Assembly: GCA_014859095.1 (NCBI GenBank)
Contig: JACUUV010000002.1
Location: 94,376-158,375 of the forward strand
DNA: 64,000 bases
From: Clostridia bacterium
GTDB taxonomy: Bacteria > Bacillota > Clostridia > Peptostreptococcales > Acidaminobacteraceae
Reading direction: 5' to 3'
This document shows positions 13,098-64,000 of the stretch, in pieces (the stretch's first letter is position 1; each line of letters begins with the position of its first letter). Position numbers and translations under genes: made by a program. The notes under the pieces were generated by a model. That model ran no database searches and was not told where the DNA came from. It worked only from the letters and a program-made list of their open reading frames with translations.

Positions 13098-13107
13098 CGC
13101 AAAACAA

Positions 13108-13135
13108 AAGCCAAAAGTGCAAACACTCTTGGCTT
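13108..13135 (-). terminator. terminator hairpin of the flippase gene; stem reaches into its TAA
   Basis: aagccaaaagtg-caaa-cactcttggctt, one G-T wobble; directly at the CDS end (13134). Confidence 0.75.
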
Positions 13136-23224: not shown

Positions 23225-23266
23225 ATGTTCAGATAATGTACAATTTTCTGTACATTATCTGAACAT
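23225..23266 (-). terminator. 18-bp perfect inverted repeat overlapping the aroE stop codon; terminator-like
   Basis: atgttcagataatgtaca-attttc-tgtacattatctgaacat; minus strand is followed by a T-rich tract. Confidence 0.75.
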
Positions 23267-24067
23267 CCCCATCAGCATCAACCTGTTTTTTTCTGTATTC
23301 ATACTATGACCAGTCCAAAGGCTTTCCGCCTCAAGCGCTTGAACAATCAACATATCAAGTCCTCCGAGTACCTTTATGCCTATCTTGGAAGCTTCTCGCA
23401 TCAACATAGTCTCGGGTGGATTATAAATCAGGTCGATCACAGCGTCATGATGGAGGAGTAATTCCCTGGAAACAGGCATGGTTTCAATATGACTGCCCAT
23501 ACCGAGTGGCGTGCAGTTCACTAATAGATCTACCGGTTTTCTGTTCAATTCCAGTGATGTGTAATTTATGCATCTCGCTTTTTTGAAATAGGTTTCATCA
23601 CAATTCCGCGATCTCGATACCACTGATATGTCATCAAATCCCAAGTCCATAAGAGCTTGATAAACCATTTTTGCAGCGCCTCCAGCTCCCAGAATTGTAG
23701 CGTTCCTTTTCTCCCGAAGATCCAATTGATTAAAAAGAAACATGAATCCATCGTAATCGGTATTGTAACCTATCCATTTCCCGTCTTCTGATACAACCGT
23801 ATTGACTGCACCGATTTTCCTCGCTCTTTCATCCACTTCATCCAAAAATCCGAGGATTGCCTCTTTGTAAGGAATCGTCACATTGAAACCTGAAAACGAT
23901 CTCACATATTCTGTTAGCACATCCAAGGAGAATTCTTCTCTCGGAATGTCTATCAATGAATAAAAGCCATCGATTCCATTCAATTGAAACATACGATTGT
24001 GAAGGTTGGGAGAAAAACTATAAGCGATATTCGCACCGAGTAGTCCATATTTTTTAATCACTTCCAT
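23255..24067 (-). CDS. aroE: shikimate dehydrogenase
   Basis: YSFSPNLHNRMF, GFNVTIPYKEAI, ILGAGGAAKMVYQAL, VNCTPLGM. Confidence 0.95.
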   Translation of the reverse strand: MEVIKKYGLLGANIAYSFSPNLHNRMFQLNGIDGFYSLIDIPREEFSLDVLTEYVRSFSGFNVTIPYKEAILGFLDEVDERARKIGAVNTVVSEDGKWIGYNTDYDGFMFLFNQLDLREKRNATILGAGGAAKMVYQALMDLGFDDISVVSRSRNCDETYFKKARCINYTSLELNRKPVDLLVNCTPLGMGSHIETMPVSRELLLHHDAVIDLIYNPPETMLMREASKIGIKVLGGLDMLIVQALEAESLWTGHSMNTEKNRLMLMGMFR

Positions 24068-28858: not shown

Positions 28859-31102
28859 ATGACTGAATTATTAGCACCAGCAGGAAGTATGGAAGCATTA
28901 AAGGCTGCAATTTCTAATGGTTGTGATGCAATATACTTGGGTATGCAAAAATTTGGTGCACGTGCATACTCCTCCAATTTCGATATGGAATCGTTAAAAG
29001 AGGCAGTAGCATATGCGCATCTGAGAAGTGTTAAAATCTATGTTACCATGAATACCATCGTTTTTGAAGATGAAATTTCAGAGATGAAAGCACAAATGGA
29101 TGAGTTGAATGAAATCGGTGTTGATGGCATTATTGTCCAGGACCTGGCTGCACTCGATTATATAGTCAAAAACTTTGTTGACCTTCAAGTTCATTGTTCC
29201 ACTCAAATGGGAATAGACGATTTGGACGGAACTTTATTGTTTAAGGAGCTTGGTGCAAAAAGAGTCGTTCTCTCCCGAGAAGTAGAGATTGAAAAAGTCA
29301 AAGAGATCAGAAGACTTGCCGACATACCACTTGAAATTTTTGTTCATGGCGCTTTATGTGTCTCTTACTCCGGAAACTGTCTGATGTCCGGATTAATCGG
29401 TTATCGAAGCGGAAACCGGGGAAGATGTGTTGGGTCATGTCGCAAGGCGTATGAACTTATCGACAAGACGACAGATACCATTATAGACCAAAACTATATT
29501 CTATCGACTAAGGATTTGAACACTATTGATTATATTGAGGACTTAAAAGAAATTGATTCCTTAAAAATCGAAGGTCGAATGAAAGAGCCTGCGTATGTCG
29601 CTAATGTCGTATCAAAGTATCGCAAGGCCTTAGATCATAAAGTAACCGTAGAAGATAAGGATGATTTAAGCAAAACCTTCAACAGAACTTTTACCAAAGG
29701 CTATTTGTTTCATGAAGATCCGAAAGAGATTACAAACATTTTAAGACCAAATAATTTTGGTTTTGAAATTGGCAGAATCAGCAAGATTATTAAAGACACC
29801 TATGAAATTAGACTTACTCGACCTCTAAATCAAAACGATATCATCAGAATAAGTCATAACAATGAAGATGTTATTTTATCTGTTGTAAAACTTTACGATA
29901 AAGATGACAACTTGATCAACAAAGCAGATGATGTCTGCTATATCAAAATCAAGGAAAAGCTGTCTAAGGGTGATTTGGTCTATTTGACAAAGGATTATTC
30001 CTACTACAAAGAACTGGAATCATCACTGGAAAATGAATTTAGGCGATTTGACCTGGATGTTAAAGTGTATGCTTATCCGGATTCAAATCTGGTCATATAT
30101 GCGAACGGCTTAGGTTTTGATTTTTTATACGAAGGAACTGAAATACTAGGTAAAGCCATAAATAATCCAACAACAAAAGAGCAGGTGATTAAACAACTCT
30201 CCAGATTAAATGATACGATATTCGAGCTTAAGTCTGTGGACTATGAGGATTGTGGTGCATTTATTCCAGCTAAACTTTTAAATGCAGCCAGAAGAGATAT
30301 AGTACAGGGCTTATATGACTTGAAGCAAAGTAGCCAAAGGAAAAGAACCAAGTCACCTACCGCAAAAGAAAAATTATGCTATACCCCTCAAAAACCATAC
30401 CTTACGGCTTCGGTATCCACTAAGGAGCAATATGATGCTTGCGTGAGCAGTGGTATAACAGAAATCTATTTTGAAAACGTTGTCAGAAGAAACCAAATCG
30501 AGTATACGAAAAAAGAGGGACCACTGCTCATCGGAGGATATGGTGGAATTCATCACTATAGAACAACCAATCCTTTCATTACCGACTATTCTCTAAACGT
30601 TGTCAATTCTACCAGTTGCTATGAATTATATAGATTGGGTGCAAAACGAGTCACATTATCTTATGAAATGAATAAAAATCAAATTGAAGATTTGATGACT
30701 GCTTACCATGTAGAAAATGGAGGCGCTCCCGCACTTGAAATGATTGTATATGGCAGGGCGCCCATGATGTTTACGAAATATTGTCCACTGAAAAAAATGA
30801 ATCGATGCGGTGATTGCAAAACGAAGCGCTATGAGATCCAAGATGAGCAAGGATCGTTCCCGATCATCACTCATGAGGATTGTACAGTGACCATCCTTAA
30901 TGGAAAGACGCTTAATCTTTTAGATGAGCTGCAAAACATAAAAGGAATCGAGGCATTCAGATTGAATTTCACAGTTGAATCAAAAGAGCAGGTTATGGAA
31001 ACCATCAATAAGGCCTTTAGCAAATTAAATGGCACATCGAATCAAACTGTTTTTAATCAGGAAACCGACACAAGAGGACATTTTAACAAGGAGATCATGT
31101 AA
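28859..31102 (+). CDS. U32 family peptidase / RlhA-like
   Basis: MTELLAPAGSMEALKAAISNGCDAIYLG, HGALCVSYSGNCLMSGLIGYRSGNRGRCVGSCRKAY; ATG 28859 with agaggga SD. Confidence 0.92.
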   Translation: MTELLAPAGSMEALKAAISNGCDAIYLGMQKFGARAYSSNFDMESLKEAVAYAHLRSVKIYVTMNTIVFEDEISEMKAQMDELNEIGVDGIIVQDLAALDYIVKNFVDLQVHCSTQMGIDDLDGTLLFKELGAKRVVLSREVEIEKVKEIRRLADIPLEIFVHGALCVSYSGNCLMSGLIGYRSGNRGRCVGSCRKAYELIDKTTDTIIDQNYILSTKDLNTIDYIEDLKEIDSLKIEGRMKEPAYVANVVSKYRKALDHKVTVEDKDDLSKTFNRTFTKGYLFHEDPKEITNILRPNNFGFEIGRISKIIKDTYEIRLTRPLNQNDIIRISHNNEDVILSVVKLYDKDDNLINKADDVCYIKIKEKLSKGDLVYLTKDYSYYKELESSLENEFRRFDLDVKVYAYPDSNLVIYANGLGFDFLYEGTEILGKAINNPTTKEQVIKQLSRLNDTIFELKSVDYEDCGAFIPAKLLNAARRDIVQGLYDLKQSSQRKRTKSPTAKEKLCYTPQKPYLTASVSTKEQYDACVSSGITEIYFENVVRRNQIEYTKKEGPLLIGGYGGIHHYRTTNPFITDYSLNVVNSTSCYELYRLGAKRVTLSYEMNKNQIEDLMTAYHVENGGAPALEMIVYGRAPMMFTKYCPLKKMNRCGDCKTKRYEIQDEQGSFPIITHEDCTVTILNGKTLNLLDELQNIKGIEAFRLNFTVESKEQVMETINKAFSKLNGTSNQTVFNQETDTRGHFNKEIM

Positions 31103-31107
31103 GAAAA

Positions 31108-31145
31108 AACCCTCAAAACTATTGAAATCAATGGTTTTGAGGGTT
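31108..31145. terminator. bidirectional-looking terminator between convergent U32 and HAD genes
   Basis: aaccctcaaaac...gttttgagggtt with nested attga-aa-tcaat. Confidence 0.8.
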
Positions 31146-31156
31146 CTCTATTTTAT

Positions 31157-45658: not shown

Positions 45659-45697
45659 AAAAGGAGAATGTTTCTTCAGTGTCATCTTGAAAGGTCA

Positions 45698-45739
45698 GCT
45701 GAGACGCTAATAAGTTTCCTTCGGAAACTTAACTACGCG
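45698..45739 (+). repeat. REP-like palindromic element, copy 1
   Basis: gctgagacgctaataagtttccttcggaaacttaactacgcg; same sequence at 57707-57747 and inverted at 63604-63646. Confidence 0.9.
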
Positions 45740-45801
45740 CTTGCTTAAGAGATAAAAAATAGAATGCCCAAAGGCATTCTATTTTTTATCTCTTAAGCAA
45801 G
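45740..45801 (-). terminator. 29-bp perfect inverted repeat, 4-nt loop, spanning the stop codon and coding end of the SpoU gene
   Basis: cttgcttaagagataaaaaatagaatgcc-caaa-ggcattctattttttatctcttaagcaag. Confidence 0.9.
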
Positions 45802-46655
45802 CCTTTACGTTTCAAGGTTGCCTCATATAAAATTACGGTTGCAGCGATGCCGACATTAAGCGAGTCACAATCGCCGAACATCGGTATCTTAACCGCTTGA
45901 TATGGAAGCGTATACCATTCTCTGGATATGCCATGACGTTCACTGCCCATGATTATGGCGATATTGCCTGAATAATCTTCTTCAAAATAATCCACAGCGC
46001 CATCGGTATCCGTCAAAATGATTTTAAAATGGTGTTTGATCAACCATTTGGAGACGTTCTCAAACTCATCTTCCACTATAGGAATCTTAAAGCATGATCC
46101 CTGAGAGCTCCTTATGAATTTTGGATGGGTCAATCTGGTCTTTCGGTTGCAAATCACAATCAAGTCCACATCTGTTCCATCAGCCGATCTTGTGATGGTA
46201 CCCACATTTCCCGGGATTTCCAGACCATCCATGATCATGACCAAATTGGTCTTCTTCGGCTTGTAATCTTCAAGTGCTGTCTTTGGAAAGTAACACAGCG
46301 TAATCATACCTGCCGGGTTGCCGCTTTCCGACACCTGTTCCATGGTTTTTTTCGAAATCAGGTAAACATCTGGCGCCAGTGCTATGAGCTTCTCCAACAT
46401 ATGATACGCTTCCGGGGTCACTATGGACTCGACCGCCACCAGGAGGTATTCTATCTTGAGGTTATACCCTATCACAAACTGGTTGGCCCATATGCCTTCC
46501 ACTGGAATCAACTGCTTGGTGTTGCTTTTTTTGTTGTTGTTGATTTGATCCACACGTTTGACCATGGGAGATTTCGACCCTGCAAAATGAACTTTGTTGG
46601 GATTGTTGGCTTTGATCCATTTTTCCTTTTCCTCAACTTCCAGTTTTAGAAACAT
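45786..46655 (-). CDS. TrmH/SpoU-family RNA 2'-O-methyltransferase
   Basis: PGNVGTITRSADGTDVD, IIMGSERHGIS, SLNVGIAATVILYEA. Confidence 0.92.
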   Translation of the reverse strand: MFLKLEVEEKEKWIKANNPNKVHFAGSKSPMVKRVDQINNNKKSNTKQLIPVEGIWANQFVIGYNLKIEYLLVAVESIVTPEAYHMLEKLIALAPDVYLISKKTMEQVSESGNPAGMITLCYFPKTALEDYKPKKTNLVMIMDGLEIPGNVGTITRSADGTDVDLIVICNRKTRLTHPKFIRSSQGSCFKIPIVEDEFENVSKWLIKHHFKIILTDTDGAVDYFEEDYSGNIAIIMGSERHGISREWYTLPYQAVKIPMFGDCDSLNVGIAATVILYEATLKRKGLLKR

Positions 46656-57670: not shown

Positions 57671-57689
57671 GCCAAGAGTGCGAGCACTC
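57671..57689 (+). repeat. duplicate copy of the terminal hairpin sequence gccaagagtgcgagcactc
   Basis: identical 19-nt string at 57751-57769. Confidence 0.9.
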
Positions 57690-57706
57690 GAGGGCACTCA
57701 ATCAAA

Positions 57707-57747
57707 CCGAGACGCTAATAAGTTTCCTTCGGAAACTTAACTACGCG
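57707..57747 (+). repeat. REP-like palindromic element, copy 2
   Basis: ccgagacgctaataagtttccttcggaaacttaactacgcg. Confidence 0.9.
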
Positions 57748-57777
57748 AAAGCCAAGAGTGCGAGCACTCTTGGCTTT
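57748..57777 (-). terminator. 14-bp perfect hairpin abutting the TAA of the LysO C-terminal gene
   Basis: aaagccaagagtgc-ga-gcactcttggcttt. Confidence 0.85.
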
Positions 57778-62083: not shown

Positions 62084-63559
62084 TTGAACTTGAAACCCAA
62101 CCTCAAATTCATTTGGCTTTTGGCTTTGGCACTGCTTTTGGGTGGTTGTCAGTCCACGTACAAATCAGCACCGGCTCCTGAAATTTATCTTACAGATGTC
62201 AAAGAGATGGTATATGAACCAGATGTCATCGGTATTCAATCCGTTATCGAAACCTATGATACCTATACATCCGCAATCCATTATCCGGTATTTGGTTACC
62301 AGACTATAGATGCCATAGTATACGACTTCATCCAAAACCGGCATGAATTGTTCCGTCAGGAACTTGCTGAAATCCTCGAGGCAAACGAAAGCAAATGGCC
62401 ACTTGAACTGCATATGGAATACGATATTGTCTACCAGACTCCGCGACATGCGGCGATTTTATTCAAAGAGCGTAAACATCTTGGAAGCGCTCAGGTATCG
62501 GTAAACAGATTCACATTCAATTTCAATTTTGATACGGACAAACAGTTGACACTGGCGGATTTGTTTGAGAACAACGCCAGTTACCTTAAAATCATCTCCG
62601 AGCTCTCATATGAATTGTTGACTGAAGGCGATTTGATTCCCTCGGCAGTGGATATGAACTGGGTAAAAGGCGGCTTGTCTCCTCATGAAAAGAATTACTC
62701 GAACTTCCTGATGCAATCCAATACGCTTGTCCTACTTTTCAACAAATACCAACTCGGTCCCGCATTCATTGGGGCACCATCCATTGAAATCCCATATGAG
62801 AGTCTCAATGCCTATTTGCCGCTCAAAGAAAGTCTTCTCAATAATTTCAATGGTAAAATTTCAAAGTTGACTTCAGATCCAATCCTGTCATTGGATTTGG
62901 AGGCTGATAATCTTGAACCTGCGAGCTCCGAGAAAGCTCCAGAATCGTTTTACAAAAAAAGGATCGCCATCACTTTCGATGACGGACCTCATCCGATTTT
63001 CACGCCAATCATAGTGAATACACTGGGGAGCTACAATGCAAAAGCAACTTTTTTCTTATTGGGCAACCGTATTGCGGATTATCCCGACGTGGCAAAGCAT
63101 TTACTCTCAGAAGGACACATGATCGGCAATCATTCATTCAGCCATCCCCAACTTTCACGGATGTCCACAGAGGAAATATTGAATGAGGTGACCAGAACTC
63201 AAAACATCATTGAAAACGCCACCGATTTCACCCCATTTCTCATGCGTCCACCATTTGGCGCAATCAATGATGTCGTATTGACTACGGCTCAGATGCCTAT
63301 GATTCTTTGGTCCATTGACTCAGAAGATTGGATTTACAAAGATCCGGACTATATAGTAAACTTTGTTCTGGACCATGCGTTTGACGGGGCCATAATACGT
63401 CTCCACGACACTCTTCCCAACACGACACATGCCATAGGTCCAATGGTGGAAGGATTGATCAGCGCAGGATATGAGCTTGTGACTGTGGATAAACTGCTGG
63501 GAATCACCAAGGATTCTGCGGATAAAAATTTAAGGTCATTTTCTAGGGCTTTAAAATAA
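62084..63559 (+). CDS. lipoprotein polysaccharide deacetylase, PdaC-like (DUF4163/DUF3298-like region plus NodB domain)
   Basis: lipobox LLLGGCQS; DTDKQLTLADLF DUF3298-type region; KRIAITFDDGPHPIFTP, GNHSFSHPQLS, FMRPPFGAIN; TTG start. Confidence 0.9.
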   Translation: MNLKPNLKFIWLLALALLLGGCQSTYKSAPAPEIYLTDVKEMVYEPDVIGIQSVIETYDTYTSAIHYPVFGYQTIDAIVYDFIQNRHELFRQELAEILEANESKWPLELHMEYDIVYQTPRHAAILFKERKHLGSAQVSVNRFTFNFNFDTDKQLTLADLFENNASYLKIISELSYELLTEGDLIPSAVDMNWVKGGLSPHEKNYSNFLMQSNTLVLLFNKYQLGPAFIGAPSIEIPYESLNAYLPLKESLLNNFNGKISKLTSDPILSLDLEADNLEPASSEKAPESFYKKRIAITFDDGPHPIFTPIIVNTLGSYNAKATFFLLGNRIADYPDVAKHLLSEGHMIGNHSFSHPQLSRMSTEEILNEVTRTQNIIENATDFTPFLMRPPFGAINDVVLTTAQMPMILWSIDSEDWIYKDPDYIVNFVLDHAFDGAIIRLHDTLPNTTHAIGPMVEGLISAGYELVTVDKLLGITKDSADKNLRSFSRALK

Positions 63560-63603
63560 GGTTACAATATTTGCGCAAAGCGCAAATATTGTAACCTTAT
63601 TTT
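63553..63603 (+). terminator. 24-bp perfect hairpin (AAA loop) spanning the stop codon of the deacetylase gene
   Basis: aaaataaggttacaatatttgcgc-aaa-gcgcaaatattgtaaccttatttt. Confidence 0.9.
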
Positions 63604-63646
63604 ACGCGTAGTTAAGTTTCCGAAGGAAACTTATTAGCGACTCAGC
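63604..63646 (-). repeat. REP-like palindromic element, copy 3 (inverted orientation)
   Basis: acgcgtagttaagtttccgaaggaaacttattagcgactcagc = reverse complement of copies 1 and 2 with one change. Confidence 0.9.
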
Positions 63647-63977
63647 TAATATTTACAGATGCTATTGAAGCGAAACTATACTAGCCTCTATGTATCTATG
63701 TTTCACATATTTACAGTTCATTTATTTTGCTGAGACGTAGTTATGTTTCTTATACTCTATTGAACATAGAAACATAGGCTCCTGTGTTTGCTGGGCTAGG
63801 CTAGTATAGTTTCGCTTCGCGAGAACCATACCTACGCCCAATGTTTCGTTTCACAAAACATTGCAAGTCGCCCAATATTTGCGCAAAGCGCAAATATTGT
63901 ACCTACGCGAATAATTAAAAGAAGGGGACCACAGCGAAGCTGTAAATGGTTCTTACGCAACATCTCGAAATATAAAA
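63640..63977. repeat. hairpin-dense mosaic between inverted copies 3 and 4
   Basis: 20-bp perfect IR gaagcgaaactatactagcc (63667-63686) / ggctagtatagtttcgcttc (63799-63818); caatgttt/aaacattg (839-846/856-863); caatatttgcgcaaagcgcaaatattg (63873-63899); recurring TACGC tags. Confidence 0.85.
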
Positions 63978-64000
63978 CTGAGACGCTAATAAGTTTCCTT
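63978..64000 (+). repeat. REP-like palindromic element, copy 4 (cut by window end)
   Basis: ctgagacgctaataagtttcctt = first part of copies 1 and 2. Confidence 0.88.

Follow-up and report, generated by a model that had tools for sequence, protein, structure and literature searches.

GTAG-tagged REPs (Di Nocera et al. 2013, PMC3733652) are short imperfect hairpins with GTAG ahead on one strand, are extragenic and near gene 3' ends, and occur singly or in clusters. The same paper reports that some REP families lie inserted in longer palindromes; it makes no mention of Firmicutes. Perfect stems can be created or repaired in one step by template switching, which yields multi-base double changes without GU intermediates and, possibly, loop inversion (Monttinen and Loytynoja 2022, PMC8794818); quasipalindrome correction, as in the quasipalindrome mutations of E. 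coli (PMC7202029), belongs to the same kind. No repeated element setting the palindrome end was found in PMC8794818 or PMC7202029. A literature search for a terminator-targeting repeat of like kind yielded nothing closer than the REP papers.

The repeat described here resembles GTAG-tagged REPs in being a multicopy, extragenic, imperfect palindrome of 20–40 bp with an unpaired GTAG end. It differs in that no associated RAYT was found, none of the RAYT-like genes having this repeat on its flanks within the 3–4 kb examined, and in that the adjoining stems are drawn from arbitrary host sequence, with one end that coincides exactly with the element. Two properties, near-perfect WC pairing with almost no GU and simultaneous mirrored arm changes, are shared with template-switch hairpins (PMC8794818, PMC7202029), but here the same element fixes one palindrome end at dozens of loci, and this fixed border is a new feature relative to known template switching. 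Many adjoining hairpins have the A-tract/stem/T-tract layout of bidirectional intrinsic terminators and lie between convergent genes, although their stems pass the T-tract into codons or a promoter and contain almost no GU. Insertions tied to palindromic repeats are also known from REP sequences that serve as IS targets (PMC1525189); unlike those, the present element involves no insertion sequence or coding region.

The window, i.e. the whole 64,000-nucleotide stretch analysed, contains the repeat GACGCTAATAAGTTTCCTTCGGAAACTTAACTACGCG at 45703–45739 and 57711–57747 on the plus strand and, on the opposite strand, at 63605–63641. The element is about 70 nt long and has two parts: X, which varies, and H, a conserved hairpin that has a CGC/GCG clamp in a consensus fold of 32 copies; read on the minus strand, H is GCGTAG-TTAAGTTTCC-GAA-GGAAACTTATTAGC. 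H loops in the consensus fold set are TTC/GAA, TGC/GCA, TAC/GTA and TTT/AAA, in small numbers. An Rfam search of the window gave no match, and an RNA family is thus not indicated. The features of the window are as follows.

45671–45704, plus strand: X part of the repeat, TTTCTTCAGTGTCATCTTGAAAGGTCAGCTGAGAC, which differs among copies
45703–45739, plus strand: REP-like H hairpin of copy 1 (CGC clamp, arms TAAGTTTCC/GGAAACTTA, loop TTC, CTAC, GCG clamp)
45739–45768, plus strand: arm of the 30-bp palindrome on the element side (inner arm), the probable copied arm judging from the inverted-repeat search and orthologs
45769–45772, plus strand: 4-nt loop CAAA, from the inverted-repeat search
45773–45802, plus strand: outer arm, comprising the trailer and, from the SpoU-family gene, the stop codon (45786–45788) and the final 14 coding nt
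57671–57690, plus strand: upstream partial duplicate of the copy 2 terminator hairpin (left arm, loop and 6 nt of right arm)
57691–57747, plus strand: repeat copy 2, with the thiol peroxidase gene on one side and lysO on the other
57748–57777, plus strand: hairpin adjoining copy 2, with a 14-bp stem
63552–63604, minus strand: 25-bp perfect palindrome adjoining copy 3, which includes the final part of the polysaccharide deacetylase gene (62084–63559) and its stop codon
63605–63670, minus strand: repeat copy 3, inverted
63671–63909, plus strand: composite of further hairpin modules, several with a CTACGC end (GGCTAGTATAGTTTCGC..., CCAATGTTTCG..., CCAATATTTGCGC...)
63910–63943, plus strand: partial hairpin duplicate ahead of copy 4 (left arm, loop and about 5 nt)
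63978–64000, plus strand: start of copy 4, interrupted by the contig (window) end

Further hairpin modules that end in CTACGC recur across loci and make up composites. The stretch at 63671–64000 is a long composite of this kind at the contig end, and its module loops occur in both orientations (TTT/AAA).

The genome containing the window (G000; 2.98 Mb in 134 contigs), which belongs to a genus of uncultured Clostridia, carries 23 copies of the repeat, and two further species of the same genus carry 38 (G001) and 25 (G002). These three were the only carriers among 41 genomes of the family, and no copies were detected in a fourth species (G003), about 70% identical. An exact-pattern scan of GTDB contigs, in which records near the window's genome were possibly omitted, recovered the repeat only from two Bacillota/Clostridiales MAGs. 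The assemblies are themselves fragmented MAGs, and repeats often sit at contig ends. The repeat is extragenic, mainly at gene 3' ends, and most copies lie between convergent genes. The copy 2 locus in G002 (L074, C164, about 46.2–47.7 kb) has no element; an extra putative beta-lactamase-like gene, identified by eye, there separates the thiol peroxidase gene from lysO.

Copy 1 lies between the D-serine ammonia-lyase gene dsdA on the plus strand and a SpoU-type gene on the minus strand (45786–46655; Pfam SpoU_methylase, 110 bits), and its CTACGC end directly adjoins the palindrome. The original prediction of a 29-bp perfect palindrome (45740–45768 / 45773–45801) was correct, and an inverted-repeat search of the window extended the stem by one pair to arms of 30 nt (45739–45768 / 45773–45802) that are 100% complementary around a 4-nt loop. 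The SpoU-type stop codon was likewise found where predicted, inside the outer arm, which with the extra pair holds 14 coding nt. By computation, ~1e-12 stems of this kind would be expected by chance in 64 kb. The core of the copy 1 hairpin fits an intrinsic terminator, with a short stem and a T-tract, but a 12-bp basal part lies outside the T-tract. At the orthologous place G001 has an identical 30-bp stem and G002 a different perfect stem of 21 bp that also extends into codons. An assembly artefact was ruled out because these three separate assemblies agree. The element-free relative G003, only about 70% identical, has an ordinary short terminator that stops outside the stop codon, as anticipated if the long stem accompanies the element.

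The same arrangement was observed throughout the carrier genomes. Among 80 distinct copies, 22 adjoin a recurrent module and 52 of the remainder have a strong hairpin, with stems of up to 33 bp. The stem begins 0–1 nt past CTACGC in 50 of these 52 host-type hairpins, so that the predicted junction of repeat and stem base is exact across copies. Base pairs in repeat-adjoining stems numbered 968 WC, 2 GU and 11 mismatched (981 pairs) vs 1338, 78 and 60, respectively, in identically scored control terminators at gene ends without the repeat in the same genomes (1476 pairs), a comparison for which pair-level p values assume independent pairs and are indicative only. At the hairpin level, the whole stem was perfect in 39/50 repeat-adjoining hairpins vs 28/90 controls (Fisher p 9e-8). 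A stop codon fell within 24/37 repeat-adjoining hairpins vs 9/59 others. The repeat is thus strongly associated with long stop-spanning hairpins but is not strictly required for them, since five perfect stop-spanning examples of at least 18 bp occur with no element at the base (window 23225–23266, L181, L183, L185 and L196).

The example at 23225–23266 is an 18-bp hairpin that spans the stop and last codons of a minus-strand gene (23255–24067), and an orthologous-looking place in G002 (L196:14648) has a longer version of 20 bp. Closely similar AAAGCCAAGAGTGC.GCACTCTTGGCTTT terminators were also noted at unrelated loci (L004, L011, L040, L051, L096 and L118), with a similar one at 13107–13135 of the window; they mostly adjoin the element, and one instance is without it.

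Orthologous stems differ by mirrored changes. At 10 curated loci, compared across species pairs that are non-independent, both members of the base pair had changed in 31 cases and a single member in 4, with 0 changes to GU. At 31101–31152 of the window, which is element-free in G000, an imperfect terminator ends short of the stop codon, and in the element-bearing G002 ortholog the stem spans the stop codon and two codons.

A locus upstream of clpB separates the palindrome from gene ends. Among the genes of the relatives that are mentioned here, a family model confirmed ClpB alone (TIGR03346, 1251 bits); sequence inspection is the basis of the assignments for the DEAD-box-like gene, the CIRCE operator and the promoter. 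The region upstream of clpB contains a putative CIRCE operator and a putative sigma-A promoter, TTGACA-17-TATAAT. In G000, ...CTACGCG precedes a palindrome of 25 bp (L226:4459–4512). Its outer arm contains the 17-nt spacer and the -10 box of this promoter, so that the -10 box recurs inverted in the inner arm. The palindrome in G001 is a different one, 16 bp long and formed from that species' own distinct spacer. In G002, H is deleted, GTACGCG alone is left and the palindrome is imperfect. In G003 the promoter is present and both repeat and palindrome are absent. Because a promoter is not a pre-existing terminator, the best reading of the inner arm here is that it was copied from host DNA.

Several sites record how copies arrive and decay. 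Filled and empty sites were paired at one locus (G000 L006 vs G001 L124) and beside a DEAD-box-like gene (G000 and G002 vs G001). In G001 (L156) the element is inserted into a terminator that is already a perfect 16-bp hairpin in G000 (L226), and a further G001 site (L165, vs G002 L194) gained a unit of about 92 bp with its own hairpin and no target duplication. Upstream partial hairpin duplicates, comprising a complete left arm, the loop and a few nt of right arm, were found in 26 cases; they stop at -5 to +12 nt relative to the end of the loop, 15 are preceded by an older ACGC end, and the flanking duplicates are roughly 19–41 nt long. Compared with IS200/IS605-type MITEs, which insert without target duplication, the picture is mixed, as many copies carry such a partial duplicate and the L165 insertion carries none. 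A regrowth model, in which the element enters the right arm and the left arm is regrown, was rejected as a general rule because the downstream hairpin usually retains the loop and apex of the upstream duplicate. A decayed copy (L189; G000 C48 39501–59500) has lost its right H arm, together with the inner arm of the hairpin, by deletion between two AGTTT repeats.

These observations bear on whether the element finds its palindromes or makes them. A mobile repeat could insert exactly at the foot of older long perfect hairpins, mostly bidirectional terminators, with RNA selection keeping them perfect. The perfect stop-spanning hairpins without the element, the insertion into an existing hairpin at L156, the partial duplicates that flank several insertions and resemble target duplication, and the position of most copies between convergent genes are all in keeping with such target choice. 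We nevertheless regard it as unlikely, although a serious candidate. The clpB hairpin is a promoter rather than a terminator and is absent from the element-free species; for one and the same element position, the stem ends differently on the host side from species to species but identically on the element side; GU pairs are nearly absent; and the clpB hairpin is imperfect where H was deleted.

Transposition itself could alternatively produce the palindrome. A REP/RAYT or other HUH transposase might cleave at CTACGC and leave a 3'-OH from which snap-back synthesis would start, with the flanking strand as template; this would account for a border exact at one position; the opposite-strand H, with GTAG and an imperfect hairpin, matches GTAG-tagged REPs (PMC3733652), and RAYT-sized Y1 transposase genes are present in 4/4 genomes. 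This route appears improbable, however, as no RAYT gene has flanking CTACGC/GCGTAG within the examined 3–4 kb, and the only RAYT type common to all three carriers is also in element-free G003. RAYT was accordingly rejected as the mover, its genes lacking flanking repeats and its distribution not tracking the repeat. Target-primed reverse transcription of an element RNA would give a sharp 3' end, a ragged 5' part and variable-length target duplications, as seen in the CTACGC end, the variable X part and the flanking duplicates. It is nonetheless highly improbable: an RVT_1 search of G001, which has the most copies (38) and is 96% complete, returned no reverse transcriptase match, and the mirrored arm changes would be left unexplained. 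Reverse transcriptase was rejected as the mover on that absence, and a group IIC intron or derivative was dismissed on the same RVT_1 result, the element length and the lack of an Rfam match in the window. An IS200-type gene near GCGTAG in G000 (C88) was set aside as its surroundings are unlike the element. No transposase or reverse transcriptase tracks the repeat. At L078 and L213 a RAYT-like gene lies near GGGGACAGG/CCTGTCCCC repeats, a different repeat family that also adjoins some element copies (L009, L010).

On balance, the inner arm is best taken as copied from host DNA and not as part of an ordinary terminator. Replication template switching, with the REP-like hairpin fixing one end, is the best explanation, and we consider it somewhat more likely than not. 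Template switching during replication would both make the adjoining hairpin and keep its arms perfect, at the DNA level. Replication would write one arm as the reverse complement of its partner, in most cases with a host gene end or promoter as the template for the inner arm. Which arm served as template can be told clearly only at loci where codons or a promoter constrain one of the two. The element would set the inner end of every such palindrome. By conjecture, the stable H hairpin, with its CGC/GCG clamp and no gap to the next stem, might fold in the nascent strand or template and cause the polymerase to quit the template, or to rejoin it, at a fixed base. The outer end and loop, both of which vary, would arise from short inverted repeats in host DNA, and the partial upstream hairpin copies may reflect copying that often stopped shortly past the loop and restarted elsewhere.

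The original prediction that the non-coding arm was copied from the gene end agrees with the exact border and mirrored arm changes, by which the inner arm behaves as a host DNA copy. Its restriction of the process to gene 3' ends does not hold, as the clpB hairpin derives from a promoter, nor does a single copying event coupled to insertion: the host-side palindrome end varies by species at the same element position (30 vs 21 bp at dsdA–SpoU; 25 vs 16 bp at clpB), which indicates that arms were rewritten after insertion. Overall the prediction was supported in part: the repeat marks the end of the copied arm exactly, and some perfect stop-spanning hairpins without the element and some insertions into already perfect terminators count against it.

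Taken together, the data suggest that host DNA has repeatedly been turned into mirror images by replication errors at the element. A bolder and more tentative reading is that the element is a palindrome generator, whose hairpin end turns replication back at a fixed base. If true, its last hairpin would be continually rebuilt from adjacent host DNA, and neighbouring codons and promoters would be coupled to non-coding DNA, with both rewritten. With dozens of natural loci where one template-switch palindrome end is fixed and the other free, it becomes directly testable how perfect hairpins and double changes arise. Covariation without GU can stem from DNA copying and not RNA function, which calls for caution in covariation-based RNA discovery. 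A REP-like repeat can thereby reshape adjacent promoters and gene ends, and the inverted -10 box upstream of clpB may affect heat-shock expression.
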